From positions 1 to 52,546 of the forward strand of contig JAKSLI010000019.1 in assembly GCA_024401305.1 (NCBI GenBank): 52,546 nucleotides of DNA, read 5' to 3'. Position numbers and translations under genes: made by a program. Shown piece by piece: positions 22,257-40,809 of the stretch; the stretch's first letter is position 1; each line of letters begins with the position of its first letter. The notes under the pieces were generated by a model that was not told the origin of the DNA, searched no databases, and worked only from the letters and a program-made list of their open reading frames with translations. The DNA is from Bacteroidaceae bacterium (GTDB lineage Bacteria; Bacteroidota; Bacteroidia; Bacteroidales; Bacteroidaceae).

Positions 22257-24224
22257 TTAATAACCAGGGTTCTGGAAAGCAGCCTTTTCCTCAGCAGTCA
22301 TCTGGAGAGCATCGAGCTGACCCTGTGGAATTGGACGGAGATAGTAGTGCTTCTTGATGTCACGCTTAATCTCCTTAGGCTCACGACCGTTAGCATCGCT
22401 GATGTGGTAAACACTTGCAAGCTTATCCCAAGTCTGAGTACGAACGAGGTCGAACCAACGATAGCCTTCACCCCAGTACTCGCGGAGACGCTCGTCGAGG
22501 ATGTAGTCGATAGTGATTTCTCTTGGAGTAGAAGCCTTCATCTCTGCGCTGAGGTCCTTAGTGACCTTAAGCTCTGGATAGCCTGTGTTGCTTACGAGGT
22601 AAGTGTAGTCGTTGAAACGAGTCTTCCACTTTCCTGCACGCTCGCGAATCTTGAGAATGTTATCGTATGCAGCCTTATTGTCGCCAAGCTTAACAGCAGC
22701 CTCTGCAGCTACGAAGTAGAATTCAGAGAACTTAGCGATAACGAATGGACGTGGTGAAGAACCGTTAGGGTTACCAAGCTCAGTAGCCTCCTTGCGGTCA
22801 GTACGGTGACCGATGTGCTTCCATACGCCTGGGTATGACTGACGGCTAGACTCGGTAATGTTGATTACGAATTCTGGATGACCTTCGAGAACACCAGCAT
22901 TGATGTTACCATTAGCTGCTGTATAGACAACCTTAGAATCTTCGTAACCGTTAGGAAGGAACTGGAGGAATACCTCGCCGTTCTTGATTTCAGCACCATT
23001 TGCACCCTTAACGTATGTATTAGCGTTACCACCCTTAGCCATGTTCACGCGGTACTGGTATGTGAATGTACCATCCCAGCGAGAGTCAACGTCAACATTA
23101 GTGAACTTCTTGAGTGCGTCTGGGATAGGAGCCATACGAGTCCAAGGACGACCGAGAGCCTGACAAGCCTCACGGAGAACAGGGTTACCATTTGAACCGT
23201 CTGCGAATTCGCCACGCATGTCACCACAGTAGTTCCACTGAGTGAACCAACCTGCGAAGTTTTCAGGAGCACCACCGTTACCCCAACCGAGACCGCCACC
23301 ATTGAACTGGTCGCTGTTTACAGTGTGGTCAGCCCAAAGGAGCCACTCGTTGTTACGGTCGTTCTGCCAGAAGTTTACGTCGTAGAAAGTTTCCTGGAGA
23401 CCATAACGGTGATTGCCTTCATTTTCGTCAATGGCAGTCTTAGCCACTTGGTAAGCCTTCTGGAAGTAAGTCTGAGCCTGACCCTTATCGCGGTTAGAAG
23501 TAGCAGGATAAGTATCAATGCCATTTGGATTCTCAAGCCACCATGCGTATGTAAGGTATGCCTTAGCAAGGTAGAGACGAGCAGTAGTCTTAGTAACAGC
23601 ACCGATTACACGTGGAGCGTCTGGAAGTTCGTTAACAGCCTCCTCAAGATCCTTGAATACAGCCTTAGTGTAAACCTCGTCAACAGTGTTACGCTTAGAT
23701 GTACGCTGTGAGCTGGCATTTGGCATAAGTTCACCACTACCAAGGTCGAGTGGCACACCACCGAATGTCTGTACAAGGTTGAAATAGTAGAAGCCACGGA
23801 AGAACTTAGCTTCAGCAACGAGGCTTGGAGCAATACCTACCTTGGAAGCGTTCTCAATTACAGAACTTGCAGTGTTGATTTCTGTGAAAGCAGTGCCCCA
23901 AAGAGCGTCTGAACGTACAGATGTTGAAGAAAGGTTTCCAACACCAGACATATCGATATCCTTCTGGTTACCGTCTGCAGAGTGGCCGTATGTGTACTCG
24001 TCAGTACCAGCCTCACAAGAAGTGAAGTAGTAAGCCTGACCATAGAGATTACGGAGGTGAGCGTAAAGTGAAGTAAGACCACCCTTCACACCATCCTCTG
24101 TTGTAAAGTATGTTGGGTCGTAGCCAGTTCTTGGCTGCTCGTCGAGCACGTCGCTACAAGATGTTGTTACCAACGCACCTGCAGCCATAAGACCCATGAA
24201 AGAATATTTTATGAAATTTTTCAT
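22257..24224 (-). CDS. SusD/RagB family nutrient-binding lipoprotein, 655 aa
   Basis: This is a surface lipoprotein that captures a glycan or peptide and lids the partner SusC channel. The signal peptide ends in a lipobox (ALVTTSC, Cys23). SusD landmarks follow: AEAKFFRGFYYFNLVQTFGGVPL (helical TPR core, given here as its pattern), FVIAKFSEFYFVAAEAAVKLG-type late helices, and the C-terminal DERLREYWGEGYRWFDLVR region. It starts 12 bases after susC, the usual pairing. No glycoside hydrolase, sigma/anti-sigma pair or hybrid sensor is beside it, so the ligand cannot be predicted from context. Confidence 0.93.
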   Translation of the reverse strand: MKNFIKYSFMGLMAAGALVTTSCSDVLDEQPRTGYDPTYFTTEDGVKGGLTSLYAHLRNLYGQAYYFTSCEAGTDEYTYGHSADGNQKDIDMSGVGNLSSTSVRSDALWGTAFTEINTASSVIENASKVGIAPSLVAEAKFFRGFYYFNLVQTFGGVPLDLGSGELMPNASSQRTSKRNTVDEVYTKAVFKDLEEAVNELPDAPRVIGAVTKTTARLYLAKAYLTYAWWLENPNGIDTYPATSNRDKGQAQTYFQKAYQVAKTAIDENEGNHRYGLQETFYDVNFWQNDRNNEWLLWADHTVNSDQFNGGGLGWGNGGAPENFAGWFTQWNYCGDMRGEFADGSNGNPVLREACQALGRPWTRMAPIPDALKKFTNVDVDSRWDGTFTYQYRVNMAKGGNANTYVKGANGAEIKNGEVFLQFLPNGYEDSKVVYTAANGNINAGVLEGHPEFVINITESSRQSYPGVWKHIGHRTDRKEATELGNPNGSSPRPFVIAKFSEFYFVAAEAAVKLGDNKAAYDNILKIRERAGKWKTRFNDYTYLVSNTGYPELKVTKDLSAEMKASTPREITIDYILDERLREYWGEGYRWFDLVRTQTWDKLASVYHISDANGREPKEIKRDIKKHYYLRPIPQGQLDALQMTAEEKAAFQNPGY

Positions 24225-24236
24225 TGTGTTCTCTTT

Positions 24237-27200
24237 TTACTTGATTGTTACGATTGCGATACGGTTAGCGTGGTTTGTATCAGCACCCTTAGCCTCAACG
24301 CGAGTTACGTTTACGCCACGAGACTTGAGGTATGAAGCAACTGCATCAGCACGCTGCTGTGAGAGTGTTGCGTTTACATCAGCAGGACCTTCTGGAGAAG
24401 CGTAAGCAACGATTTCTACTGACTGACCAGCCTTGATGCCGTCGAGCTCTGCCTTGTTAACGATTTCTGAAGAAGAAAGTGGGAATGTTACGATGTAAGT
24501 GCTCTGAACGCCTTCAGTCTTAACAACTTCCTTGACTACTTCCTTAACAACAGGCTTCTCTACGATCTTCTCAACAACCTTTTCTACAACCTGAGTAGCT
24601 GCTGCACGCTTAGCTGCTTTTACCTTACCGCCACCGAGAGTTACGTTAAGACCGAGAAGGTAGTTGCGAGTGCAAGGAGCGTTTGTACCAACAACAGGAA
24701 GAGCGTGACCGCCAATCTGAGTTGCGTGGAACTGGCCCTGGTTAGACATAGAGTTTGGCTCTGGATCGAGACCGCTCTCGCTCCAATATGGAGAGTAGAT
24801 GATGAATGGGTTCTGAACTGTAGCGTAGAGACGGAGGTTCTCAATACCAGCAGTCTTCATCCACTTGCCAGAGAAGTTATAGCCGAGAGAGATTGTACGA
24901 ATCTTAACGTAGCTACCATCGAAGATACCGAGTGTAGAACCATACTTAGGGTTATCACCAGACTGGATACCACCTGGCTTTGGATACTTAGCACCCTTGT
25001 TGTCCTCTGTCCAGTAATCAACATCTACCTGACCACGACGACCAGTGAGCATATTGAGGTAACCAGATGAACCGTAGAGAGTAGAGATGAGCTTACCGCC
25101 ACACTGGAATGCACCGATTACGTTGAGGTCGAAGCCCTTGTAAGCAACGCGAGTGTTGAAACCACCTACGAAGTTAGGCTCGAGGCTGATGATCTGACGG
25201 TCGTTTGGACCGATAGCCTGAAGCTCACCCTTATCGTTGTATCTCTTCTCATACTTAACCTTGATCATACCTTCGTTACCACCTGGCTCGAGAGTCTGGA
25301 AGTCTGCCCAGTCTGGATCGTCTGAGTTCCAGAGACCAACCTTTTCATAGTCATAGAGAACATCGATTGGATGACCTACGAACCAACCGTTAGCCTCGTC
25401 CTTCTCGCTACCGTCAGCAAGTGCAACGAGCTTGTTGCGATTCAAAGCGAGGTTCACGCCAGCTTCCCATGTCCAACCATTCTTGTTGTTGATGATTACA
25501 CCGTTGAGTGTAGCTTCAAGACCCTTGTTCTGAGTCTTACCGATGTTAGCAGTATAGCTGCCTACACCTGATGTAGAAGGGAGAGAAACGTTGAGGAGGA
25601 TGTCGTTAGTGTTCTGGATATAGTACTCAACAGTACCGCTCAAGCGACCCTTGAAGAGAGAGAAGTCAATACCGAAGTTGTAAGTCTCACTGTACTCCCA
25701 ACCAAGTTCTGGGTTAGGAAGCTTAGTGATGTAGTAACCTGTCTCGTATGAAGGAGTACCGAGGTCACCGAAGTTGTAAGGAGATGTAGAGAGGTTACCG
25801 AGAGTAGTGTATGGAGAGATAGCCTGGTTAGCTGTCTGACCGTAACCTGCGCGGAGCTTCAAGTTGTCAACAACTTCCTGGTTCTGCATAAATGCTTCCT
25901 TAGCAATGTTCCAACCGATAGATACAGCTGGGTAAGTGTGCCACTGGTGGCCCTTAGCAAGGCGTGAAGAAGCGTCTGAACGAACAGCTGCAGAAATCAT
26001 GTAACGATCATCATAGTTGTACATGAGACGACCCATCCATGACATGAGACCTGCCTGCCAGTAGTTCTGCCAGCTTGGGTTAACAGCAACATCTTGCTTG
26101 CCAGCACCGATGTTCCAATACTGGAAGTACTCAGGTACACCGCGGCTGCCCATGTGGTTTGTAGAATAGCGAGTCTGCTCAACAGAGTAGAGACCTACAG
26201 CACTGATGTTGTGCTTGCCAAATGACTTGTCGTAAGAGAGGATGTTCTCAACAGCGTAGTTCTTGTACTCGCTCTGCTGCATTGATGCAGAGTTGAGCTC
26301 AGTAGCGTTGACAGTGTTGATACCTGTGCCAGTGAAACCACCGACCTTGTTGCCACGATAGTTGAGACCGAGGTTGAGACGATACTTCAAACCGTCAATA
26401 CCAGGGAAGTAGATCTCACCGAATACTGTGTTGTAAGTAGCGAGAGTATTGTTGTGCTGGAGCCAAGTGTCCTTGTTGTCCTCGATTCTGTCGCGAGTGA
26501 TGAACCAAACATCGTCAGAAGACATACGAGCGATACGGCCTGTAGGGTCAGCGAGGTTGTTTGGATCTACGAGTGGAGTCATCTGGAGAATACCATACAT
26601 ACCGAGGTGCATACCGTTGCGCTGGTTGTAAGTATTTGTTGAAGAGAGACCCAGCTTGAAGATTTCACCAACCTTCTGCTCAATGTTAGCACGGAGAGTG
26701 ATACGGTCGAAAGACTGTGTAGGGATAACACCTTCATCGCGGTTGTAGCTACCACCGAAGCTGTAAGTACCTGTGCTTGAACCACCAGAAACAGTTACGT
26801 TGTGGCTGTGAGAAAGACCATTCTTGTAGAAGAGGTCCTGCCAGTCAGTATCGTTGCCTTCATGCTCGTCAATACCGTTGCCGAACTTGCCAGCGAGCTT
26901 ACGCATTTCTGTGTACTTCTCGCCCTTCATCATTGGGAATGGGTTGAAGAGAGTCTTGAGAGATACATAGCCATTGTATGTAACCTTTGCAGGCATTTCC
27001 ATGTGGCCCTTGTTAGTAGTGATGATGATGACACCGTTAGCACCACGAGAACCGTAGATAGCTGTTGCAGAAGCATCCTTCAAGATGTCGAGAGACTTGA
27101 TGTCTGAAGGGTTGATGTCAGAAAGGTTGCCGAGGAATGGAATACCGTCAAGCACGATGAGTGGGTCGTTAGAAGCAGAGAGTGAACGCTGACCACGGAT

Positions 27201-27725
27201 ACGGATCTGCATTTCAGCACCTGGCTGAGAGTTTGTCTGCTGCATGTCAACACCAGCAATACGGTTCTGGAGAGCCTGAGTGATGTTTGAAGAAGGGTTC
27301 TCCATCAACTTCTCTGAACTTACAGAAGCAACAGAACCTGTTACAGCCTCTTTGCGCTGAGTACCGTAACCGATAACTACTACCTCATCAAGAGCTTGGT
27401 CTTCAGAGTCAAGTGAAATAACTAGGTTGTTTCCTGCTACTCGTACAGTCTTTGTAACGAAGCCAATGTAAGAAACAACGAGAGTCTGACCATCCTTAGC
27501 CTCAATAGAGAACTTTCCGTCATAGTCAGTGATAACACCGGAGTTCTGAACTCCCTGAATTGCTACTGTTGCACCGATAAGAGGCTCGTTGTCTGCTGAG
27601 GCAACAACCTTACCGTAAACAGTCTTTGCATTAAGAGCGCCCCAACTTACGGTAAGCAGCATCATAGCAATGAATGCCACTTTTCCAAAGAAGGATGTCT
27701 TAATCCTTTGAGAAAGGTTTCCCAT
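24237..27725 (-). CDS. SusC/RagA TonB-linked outer-membrane protein fused to an OmpA-like C-terminal domain, 1162 aa
   Basis: It is a TonB-dependent importer working with the adjacent SusD. After a signal peptide comes a carboxypeptidase-D-like regulatory domain (about 33-110), a TonB box region (DEVVVIGYGTQRKEAVTG), a plug with the SusC signature (LDILKDASATAIYGSRGANG) and a 22-strand barrel ending near residue 1034 (NYLLGLNVTLGG). Normally the protein ends there. Here the frame continues through a repeated VVEK/VVKE linker (about 1044-1072) into an OmpA-like domain (about 1075-1162) with NATLSQQRADAVASYL and a terminal NRIAIVTIK. That domain normally binds peptidoglycan in the periplasm. 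The reading frame is continuous with no stop. Confidence 0.93.
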   Translation of the reverse strand: MGNLSQRIKTSFFGKVAFIAMMLLTVSWGALNAKTVYGKVVASADNEPLIGATVAIQGVQNSGVITDYDGKFSIEAKDGQTLVVSYIGFVTKTVRVAGNNLVISLDSEDQALDEVVVIGYGTQRKEAVTGSVASVSSEKLMENPSSNITQALQNRIAGVDMQQTNSQPGAEMQIRIRGQRSLSASNDPLIVLDGIPFLGNLSDINPSDIKSLDILKDASATAIYGSRGANGVIIITTNKGHMEMPAKVTYNGYVSLKTLFNPFPMMKGEKYTEMRKLAGKFGNGIDEHEGNDTDWQDLFYKNGLSHSHNVTVSGGSSTGTYSFGGSYNRDEGVIPTQSFDRITLRANIEQKVGEIFKLGLSSTNTYNQRNGMHLGMYGILQMTPLVDPNNLADPTGRIARMSSDDVWFITRDRIEDNKDTWLQHNNTLATYNTVFGEIYFPGIDGLKYRLNLGLNYRGNKVGGFTGTGINTVNATELNSASMQQSEYKNYAVENILSYDKSFGKHNISAVGLYSVEQTRYSTNHMGSRGVPEYFQYWNIGAGKQDVAVNPSWQNYWQAGLMSWMGRLMYNYDDRYMISAAVRSDASSRLAKGHQWHTYPAVSIGWNIAKEAFMQNQEVVDNLKLRAGYGQTANQAISPYTTLGNLSTSPYNFGDLGTPSYETGYYITKLPNPELGWEYSETYNFGIDFSLFKGRLSGTVEYYIQNTNDILLNVSLPSTSGVGSYTANIGKTQNKGLEATLNGVIINNKNGWTWEAGVNLALNRNKLVALADGSEKDEANGWFVGHPIDVLYDYEKVGLWNSDDPDWADFQTLEPGGNEGMIKVKYEKRYNDKGELQAIGPNDRQIISLEPNFVGGFNTRVAYKGFDLNVIGAFQCGGKLISTLYGSSGYLNMLTGRRGQVDVDYWTEDNKGAKYPKPGGIQSGDNPKYGSTLGIFDGSYVKIRTISLGYNFSGKWMKTAGIENLRLYATVQNPFIIYSPYWSESGLDPEPNSMSNQGQFHATQIGGHALPVVGTNAPCTRNYLLGLNVTLGGGKVKAAKRAAATQVVEKVVEKIVEKPVVKEVVKEVVKTEGVQSTYIVTFPLSSSEIVNKAELDGIKAGQSVEIVAYASPEGPADVNATLSQQRADAVASYLKSRGVNVTRVEAKGADTNHANRIAIVTIK
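24240..24623 (-). other. OmpA-like extension and VVEK/VVKE linker encoded at the 3' end of susC
   Basis: This is the part coding for residues about 1035-1162. The linker repeats VVEK, IVEK and VVKE as in OmpA proteins of Prevotella and Porphyromonas. The following domain keeps the OmpA_C helix L-S-x-x-R-A-x-x-V-x-x-Y-L-x-x-x-G-V and the terminal N-R-[I/V]-A-I strand. The Arg that contacts diaminopimelate in OmpA is present (LSQQR). The partner Asp position, in the loop before it, appears as Ser in AYASPEG, so peptidoglycan binding is plausible but unproven. Confidence 0.8.
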
Positions 27726-38577: not shown

Positions 38578-40809
38578 ATGGAAGGAAAAAGATTTTTACT
38601 AATGCTCATCGTGGCGATAGTCAGCCAAGGAGCTTGGGCGCAGGGGCAATATGTCCAAGAACTTAAAGTCGGTGAGAATTTGGTCAATATTGCCGCAAAC
38701 AGCTTTAGACCTAATAGTTATGGTTGGTTTAATGAAGATGAGGCTTTCCAGTATTTCCTTTTTGAAGCACCATGTGATGGTGCCCTGACCGTAGAGGATG
38801 TGACAGGAACTCCGGATCAGCAACTTGCTATGTATGTCATTGAAACAAACAATGTCAGCTCCGATGATGTCCCTACATCTATGTATGTTCCTGAAGTTGA
38901 AAAGGGTACAACCTATCATATTGGTCTCCGTGAATTCAATGGCAACGCTCTGCAGAATGTTAAGATTCGCATTGGAATAGAGTGCCTTAACCATAATTTC
39001 AACGAGTGTGGTATTTGTCAGAATGAAGGCTGCACCAAGCAGATTCGCGTTCTCACAGACGGACAGAACAAGGATGTGATCTGCTCTTATCCTAGCGAAC
39101 GATACCTGTTTATACCAGAAACTTCTGGAAAGTTGAAAATCAGCGCAAGAAATGAAGCTGATGAGATTATTAATGTCAAATATTCATTGTATGACGAGGA
39201 CGGTTCTCTGGTTTATCAAAACTATGTAGCTAGTGCTCCTATGCGGAAGGCTGCAAGAAACAAAGGCTGTTCTGTAGAAGCTGGTAAGAAGTATTTCTTG
39301 GATTTCTCACAGTACAATAGCGGCACTTATGATATTTTGCTTGAAGTAGAAGAGGAACTTCCTCCAGTGGAACTCAATGACACACAAAGCAATGAGGTGA
39401 GCTTCCCTGTAGGCTACGAGCAACTTTCTGGATTTAAGTATACTGTCAAAGAGAAAGGCGGTCTCACTGTTTCCATAGACACAAATGCAGAAATCGTATA
39501 TGCAGATATCATACCATGGGATGAATGGTTGCAGATACAGGATGAGATGAATGGAGACTCCCCAGCAAGTGCACCTCGAAAGGCTGCAGGTGTTAGTGGG
39601 AATGAATCTTTGGTGCTTTCTAAGGTTGTTGATCCAGGAGAATATGCTATCTTTATTGTCACTACAACGAATGAAGAGACTTCAGCTGAGATTTCTCTTA
39701 ATCTGACAACAGAAGGAGCAACAACTCTTTCGATTGGAGACAACTGGATAGAAATTGCTGGAGATGATAATGAAGACTGGAACGAGGAGTCAGAAGATGC
39801 TTATACCCTCTTCCCATTTGTCCCTGCCAAGGATGGAGTCCTCATTGTTGAATCTAAGGGTAGTGAAGACACAGTTGGTGCTCTCTTTGATGCAGATAAT
39901 AATTTCATAAAGTCTGGTGATGACGAAGGTGAAGACTATAACTTTAAGTTTTCTGTAGTCGTCGAAGGAGGAAAAAACTATCATATTGGTATTCGAGAGT
40001 ATGATGGTGAGTCATTGCCTTTGTATCTTATCAATGTAAGTTTGAATGAACTACAACAAATCGACAAGACTCTTGAACTCTTTTCTGAAGAAGAAGGTGA
40101 GATTGCGCTTGGCAATGCACTTGAGAATTATTGGGGCGAAGACAAATGGGAAGATCTATTTAGTGTAAATGGAGTGACATACAAGCGCAATGCAACAACA
40201 AGCAAGTGGGGCACAGTAGTTCTTCCTTATCAACTTGAGAGCAATGAAAAGGTTGCATACTATGAGTTGACAACAGTTGATCTCCCAAATGGCATTCTTG
40301 AGTTTACAAAAGTTGATTTTGTGAAGCCTAATACTCCTACAGTCTACCGAATTATAGAAGGTAATCAGTATGATGCTTCAGTCAGTGGTGAGGTGTTAAT
40401 TGAAATTCCTCAAGAATGGGGATACATCTGGGGACCGACAAAGGCAAATGATTGGTCAATGGAAGGATGGTACTATGACACAACTATTAATACACAGAAT
40501 TACCGAAGTGAGGTTATGTACATTAGTGACGATAAGTTCTGGCATGCAACAGGTACATTGCACATGAAACCGTATCGCGCATATTTCTATACCTTTAACT
40601 GGCCTGCAGATGCTGCAAAAGCGATGAGCATTTCGTTCATAGATGATGATTCGGTTACTACCATAGAGTCTGTAATGGGAGAGAATGGCGAATTCACGGA
40701 TATTGAAGCCATCTACGACCTTTATGGACGCAAGATTGAAACAATGAAGCATGGTGTGAATATCATCCGCACTTCTAATGGCAAGATTCGTAAGTTCATC
40801 AAGAAGTAA
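38578..40809 (+). CDS. Secreted protein with repeated beta domains and sorting-type C-terminus, 743 aa
   Basis: A signal peptide (FLLMLIVAIVSQGAWAQ, cleaved near 22) precedes about four related beta domains resembling bacterial pre-peptidase C-terminal domains, at about 28-135, 150-258, 265-378 and 383-490. The first and last share the clear motif K-G-T-T-Y-H-I-G-L-R-E-F-N-G (110-122) and G-G-K-N-Y-H-I-G-I-R-E-Y-D-G (464-477). The 500-680 region is an unrecognised beta domain. The end (AIYDLYGRKIETMKHGVNII) looks like a type IX secretion or surface-attachment tail. The word SAP-(M)-RKAA occurs twice (219-226 and 331-337), possible Arg/Lys processing sites. No enzyme motif was found; a carbohydrate-binding or adhesive role is inferred. 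Confidence 0.75.
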   Translation: MEGKRFLLMLIVAIVSQGAWAQGQYVQELKVGENLVNIAANSFRPNSYGWFNEDEAFQYFLFEAPCDGALTVEDVTGTPDQQLAMYVIETNNVSSDDVPTSMYVPEVEKGTTYHIGLREFNGNALQNVKIRIGIECLNHNFNECGICQNEGCTKQIRVLTDGQNKDVICSYPSERYLFIPETSGKLKISARNEADEIINVKYSLYDEDGSLVYQNYVASAPMRKAARNKGCSVEAGKKYFLDFSQYNSGTYDILLEVEEELPPVELNDTQSNEVSFPVGYEQLSGFKYTVKEKGGLTVSIDTNAEIVYADIIPWDEWLQIQDEMNGDSPASAPRKAAGVSGNESLVLSKVVDPGEYAIFIVTTTNEETSAEISLNLTTEGATTLSIGDNWIEIAGDDNEDWNEESEDAYTLFPFVPAKDGVLIVESKGSEDTVGALFDADNNFIKSGDDEGEDYNFKFSVVVEGGKNYHIGIREYDGESLPLYLINVSLNELQQIDKTLELFSEEEGEIALGNALENYWGEDKWEDLFSVNGVTYKRNATTSKWGTVVLPYQLESNEKVAYYELTTVDLPNGILEFTKVDFVKPNTPTVYRIIEGNQYDASVSGEVLIEIPQEWGYIWGPTKANDWSMEGWYYDTTINTQNYRSEVMYISDDKFWHATGTLHMKPYRAYFYTFNWPADAAKAMSISFIDDDSVTTIESVMGENGEFTDIEAIYDLYGRKIETMKHGVNIIRTSNGKIRKFIKK

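Follow-up and report, generated by a model that had tools for sequence, protein, structure and literature searches.

OmpA-like tails on SusC importers of Bacteroidaceae: exchange between genes and a possible link to the cell wall

Bacteroidota of the gut and rumen take up glycans mainly through SusCD importers, and a gene on contig JAKSLI010000019.1 of a Bacteroidaceae bacterium (assembly GCA_024401305.1; 52,546 nucleotides, called the window here) raises the question of why one of them should end in a domain of the OmpA family and how it came by it. The minus-strand frame at positions 24237-27725 encodes a SusC/RagA TonB-dependent transporter with a C-terminal OmpA-like tail. Our analyses showed a fusion behind a complete barrel, an OmpA fold in the predicted structure, purifying selection on the tail, and gain, loss and copying of the tail as a cassette; this exchange of tails among importer genes suggests that the cell wall holds some importers in place. 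Both parts belong to known families; what seems to be new is that they are joined, that the fusion recurs and that the tail moves between genes. Among open-licence PubMed Central papers, we found no title that pairs an OmpA domain with SusC or another TonB-dependent transporter, and the parts of PMC4319957 available to us held nothing on a SusC-OmpA fusion.

The fused protein and its tail

We found that the frame is unbroken over 1162 aa and matches the SusC model TIGR04056 with 805.3 bits (cut-off 368.25) over residues 35-1030, leaving a tail of 132 residues; the original prediction, an earlier reading of this DNA, had correctly placed a tail past the barrel and had put its size slightly low, at about 128 residues. 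The SusC/RagA signature TIGR04057 was also found (61 bits; cut-off 46.2), and a partner SusD-family lipoprotein of 655 aa (22257-24224, minus strand; PF07980, 86.9 bits; PF14322, 66.9 bits) adjoins the gene downstream, as in other members of the SusC/RagA family. A domain search on the full protein, as had been proposed, matched Plug, TonB_dep_Rec and OmpA, so that the predicted uninterrupted SusC-OmpA frame is borne out by both the Pfam and the TIGR04056 matches. The barrel spans about residues 247-1030 (24636-26987) and its last strand about residues 1019-1030 (24636-24671), both placed by the end of the TIGR04056 match and the strands in the structure model; the Pfam TonB_dep_Rec match covers residues 399-972.

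Behind the last strand comes a linker (residues 1031-1074; 24504-24635) that starts with GGGKVKAAK, continues into VVEK/VVKE and is probably disordered, judging from a predicted local distance difference test (pLDDT) score below 50 at residues 1034-1074; it is also where DNA similarity to the paralogues starts. It is followed by a shortened OmpA-like domain (residues 1075-1162; 24240-24503), in which PF00691 was matched at residues 1100-1148 with 31.9 bits against a gathering cut-off of 27.2, the match being confined to profile positions 31-81 of 98. The translation shows all three features noted in the earlier reading, namely the VVEK/VVKE repeats, the helix (LSQQRADAV) and the strand (NRIAI). 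A sequence search of the Protein Data Bank gave a match to YiaD (E 9.9e-7). The predicted structure of the tail has the beta-alpha-beta-alpha-beta-beta order of an OmpA-like fold, with a shortened helix 1, and its best structural matches are the peptidoglycan-binding domains of OmpA and Pal, which excludes a tail made of further barrel strands. The Pfam match, the YiaD match, the predicted fold and the tails of two paralogues elsewhere in the genome together place the fusion beyond chance. On this evidence, the window SusC is the importer of a SusCD pair with an OmpA-like domain attached behind a complete barrel by a linker of about 40 residues that is predicted to be flexible.

That two genes were joined by an error of sequencing or assembly has a negligible probability and is refuted by independent copies: the same type of junction recurs in this genome, where three SusC genes have it, and in other genomes. 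The proposal that a downstream ompA gene had been fused to susC was not supported for this gene either, because susD occupies the place just downstream and the tails most closely related to this one belong to two other SusC of the same genome.

Movement of tails between SusC genes

The genome, in 115 contigs and 86% complete, has 16 SusC above the TIGR04056 cut-off, of which three, the window gene (C27), C29 and C31, carry the tail. The window protein is thus like the SusC/RagA family (TIGR04056, TIGR04057) in its first 1030 residues and in the SusD next door, and runs 132 residues further, whereas 13 others of the genome stop at the last barrel strand. This distribution also bears on a possible role for the tail in the envelope as a whole, in which SusC, if abundant, would act as an extra membrane-to-wall tether. 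According to the parts of PMC10628300 available to us, OmpM of diderm Firmicutes, a trimeric general-diffusion porin and not a TonB-dependent transporter, combines tether and uptake channel in one protein, a likeness to the SusC fusion for which the tether is only proposed; however, the 13 tail-less SusC and the presence of other OmpA-family proteins in the genome make such a role very improbable here.

The bodies of C27, C29 and C31 share 30-31% identity and their tails 75-83%, with the DNA similarity beginning behind the last barrel strand and ending at the stop codon. In a DNA tree of 19 tails of this kind, hereafter tail A, the three tails formed one clade (support 99/97), and constraining the C29 tail to the tails of its body relatives was rejected by the approximately unbiased (AU) test (p-AU 8.1e-6), which was run on the DNA tails after a wider tail tree with the same clade (99/96) was already known. 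The protein version gave the clade with 93/91 and p 0.027 in the same AU test. The clade and the rejected grouping indicate that tails have moved between SusC genes of one genome, the putative mechanism being that the 3' end was converted or copied. In a quick body tree of 34 SusC, the label 'fused' changed 8 times, at least 5 of them forced by starred branches; one ancient fusion inherited with the body is ruled out by the conflict between body and tail trees. The dN/dS values among the three tails (0.114/0.709, 0.162/0.639 and 0.185/0.497) indicate purifying selection on the tail.

Copying within one genome was not seen everywhere. For example, G440, a genome of another genus, has three A-type tails: two are sisters (91/89), but the remaining one, which lies at a contig end, clusters with those of the window genome (98/97), so that tails do not simply form one cluster for each genome. 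Similarly, among six same-genome pairs of another kind of tail, tail C, borne on different bodies, four equalled or exceeded the best cross-genome pair by 0 to 3 points and two were no more alike than cross-genome pairs.

Kinds of tail, their gain and their loss

The proposed survey of SusC proteins for C-terminal OmpA domains, made on genome samples, yielded several distinct tails, and the sequences indicate that the OmpA tail is one of several cassettes gained and lost on SusC proteins. Tail A and stand-alone OmpA-like proteins found in Prevotella and Bacteroidaceae fell into one clade (100/99); tail B, found on six SusC of Bacteroidales metagenome-assembled genomes (MAGs; two incomplete), and the single tail C in that tree were placed outside it. 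These stand-alone proteins, of about 350-410 aa, share the VVEK linker and the shortened SPEG OmpA domain with the window protein and differ in an N-terminal part without a SusC match; a gene of this type is, from sequence comparison, a likely source of the first tail A. When 200 genomes of the genus were swept for tail C, 29 matches were strong (E <1e-57); by body similarity they are 23 SusC in 21 genomes, two of them also scored with TIGR04056, and six Oar-like receptors (L190, L192, L194, L195, L198 and L199). A fourth OmpA-like tail was found on SusC-like proteins of about 1300 aa (L209, G498:C22; L210, G110:C33).

Tail A was found on SusC in 9 of the 200 genomes, and some SusC-OmpA fusion in at least 31, a lower bound in that the tail A profile search covered 150 genomes and a count that takes the 200-genome sets of several sweeps as identical from their handles. 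One genome, G119, carries both tail A and tail C. Among 349 genomes sampled at the family level, A-type tails in long frames were present only in G000 and G440, and an order-level sweep for tail B (393 genomes, few candidates scored per genome) gave no frame above 900 aa among the matches listed. By their titles, 13 of 15 fused loci come from ruminant MAGs, if RUG is taken as rumen; since most stand-alone relatives are also from ruminant MAGs, we claim no ruminant enrichment.

Tail C is not confined to one transporter family. In its tree, C29-type SusC have their tails at two separate points, and some clades (97/96 and 95/97) unite SusC tails with those of Oar-like receptors, indicating that the cassette also crosses transporter families. 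The Oar-like TonB-dependent receptors (PF25183) have a barrel of another family. Two further Prevotella receptors of this type (L068:3699-7535 and L069:3415-7218), both matched by PF25183, end in OmpA domains. Two SusC with bodies 47% identical, L013 and L064, bear different tails, A and C, that share 24% identity.

Comparison with close relatives provided clues to both gain and loss. In the 200 genomes, 46 other loci matched the window SusC at E = 0 with 56-69% identity; two of these break off before reaching the end of the barrel, and for the remaining 44 a tail has no place in either the alignment or the frame, the 29 of the 44 that were read all ending in a strand with a final Phe followed by a stop codon. 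The window tail was therefore probably gained recently, a view that rests on counting relatives, as loss in all 44 would need many events. The closest relatives of C31 (G133, G135 and G022; 80-81% identical) likewise stop without a tail, and among the matches listed to C31 none other extends beyond residue 1099 of 1221. For C29, relatives with the tail (73-78% identical; eight genomes, one in two pieces) stand beside relatives without it (G042, G532 and G528; 75-79%). In G042 (L164, G042:C17), AAP, a further stop and YID come after the stop codon and look like what is left of a decayed linker, so that the tail-less state there arose by loss. The C29 family as a whole comprised 12 rows with tail A, four of which (L008, L009, L010 and L012) came from the separate 15-locus fused set, seven with tail C and 19 with none, and its quick body tree required six tail-state changes, forced by starred branches. 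This tree omits the pieces in G103, G133 and G140, of which the latter two end without a tail; the family matches in G036, G517, G102 and G496 stop short of the barrel end.

The patchy gain and loss and the remnant in G042 would be expected if the tail were a nearly neutral recombination passenger tolerated behind the barrel. Purifying selection on the tail and the acquisition of different OmpA tails at the same place argue against this, and we regard it as improbable.

Pocket residues, possible function and surroundings

In OmpA of Acinetobacter baumannii, according to the parts of PMC6572160 available to us, D271 binds diaminopimelate and R286 lies in the same site. When tail A was aligned to YiaD, the position of this Asp held Ser, the pocket motif reading AYASPEG instead of GYTDSTG. 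The Arg of the LSxxRA helix, which we take as the equivalent of R286, is kept (R1125 in the window, invariant in 16 aligned rows and present in all 19 A-type fused tails), as is the Asn of the motif. The set of 19 omits G512 and G540, whose protein ends equal those of L014 and L015, and L011, whose end equals that of G119; G500, outside the set and read separately, also has Ser, and L029 lies outside the residue counts. In tails B and C, the Asp was kept in 6 of 6 and 8 of 8 read, respectively. It is absent, however, from 4 of 14 other stand-alone OmpA domains and from three other proteins of the window genome with an OmpA-like motif, indicating that the Ser is not peculiar to tail A. The frames L148 and L149 (G000:C21 and C33; 822 and 802 aa) have the OmpA-like motif GAASAEG, also without the Asp. 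Relative to OmpA and Pal (PF00691), then, the window protein is alike in fold, in the Asn and Arg of the motif and in a linker behind a barrel, and differs in a shorter helix 1, in the Ser and in having a TonB-dependent transporter barrel in place of the small barrel of OmpA.

In TonB-dependent transporters, the last barrel strand ends on the periplasmic side, and from this topology the tail would be periplasmic. The reading we favour, with appreciable doubt, is that the tail reaches into the periplasm, holds peptidoglycan or a wall-bound partner, and so fixes the SusCD complex to the wall: the domain would extend from the barrel end on its linker of about 40 residues, grip peptidoglycan or something bound to it, and keep the complex at the wall, where it would neither drift in the outer membrane nor be lost in vesicles. 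If different OmpA domains are added at one and the same position, the simplest property for them to have in common is wall binding. Since tails B and C keep the Asp and tail A has Ser, tethering to peptidoglycan, as judged from these residues, is likely for B and C, and for A the balance tips less strongly in its favour. The wall tether in the original prediction is therefore upheld as to architecture, an OmpA-like fold after a complete barrel, and binding stays plausible only, given the Ser in place of the key Asp.

Several points weigh against a wall-fixing role. With Ser in place of Asp in all 19 of its fused copies and a shortened helix 1, tail A may differ from OmpA in how it binds; confidence in the full-length model is modest (mean pLDDT 60.8); the tail, patchy and lost in some relatives, is dispensable; and copying inside a genome, as described above, does not hold for every set of tails. 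The same Ser, also found in all 13 A-like stand-alone domains chosen regardless of motif (the other 9 of the 22 mini domains were picked by the motif SPEG itself and are uninformative on this point), and the short helix would suit a periplasmic docking domain for a protein, with the OmpA fold kept and the pocket changed. Such a role appears unlikely, as tail A keeps the fold and the motif Arg and Asn, and the Asp is present in all 14 tails read of types B and C, which occupy the same position on SusC. Returning to attachment at the wall, we tentatively extend it, with somewhat less than even confidence, to Prevotella and other Bacteroidales, in which OmpA anchors could be cassettes swapped by recombination that set, per importer and per strain, which TonB-dependent transporters (SusC and Oar-like) are wall-fixed, cassette A using its altered pocket for another wall part or a wall-bound protein.

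How surface enzymes, SusD and TonB come together depends in part on whether SusCD complexes move in the membrane or are fixed there; nothing on Sus mobility was found in the open-licence PubMed Central papers. Nature offers similar SusC that differ in having a tail, such as C31 and its 80-81% relatives or the C29 family, and a comparison of these existing proteins makes the question testable. Such pairs also show that outer-membrane transporters can acquire and exchange domains through recombination at the barrel end.

The N-terminal part of the window protein contains a putative signal peptide, assigned by eye, a CarboxypepD_reg-like domain (CarbopepD_reg_2; residues 37-117, 27375-27617; PF13715, 57.8 bits) and a Plug domain (residues 125-232, 27030-27353; PF07715, 71.6 bits). 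Housekeeping-like genes (murA-, trpS- and gyrB-like, named by eye from the frame list) neighbour the SusCD pair, and no glycan enzyme directly next to it was noticed in a by-eye look at the neighbours. In four of four relatives looked at, the gene neighbourhood differs from that of the window and the SusCD pair stays together. GH92 genes lie beside C29-type SusC in G103 and G047, GH28 genes in G119 and G031, and an SGBP-B-like protein adjoins C31; these differing neighbours suggest that the tailed SusC probably serve different substrates. Elsewhere in the window, positions 38578-40806 encode a 743-aa protein with no Pfam match at E 0.001. Finally, L076:3277-7256 (G000:C57) encodes three tandem OmpA-family proteins of 400-409 aa with near-identical OmpA ends.
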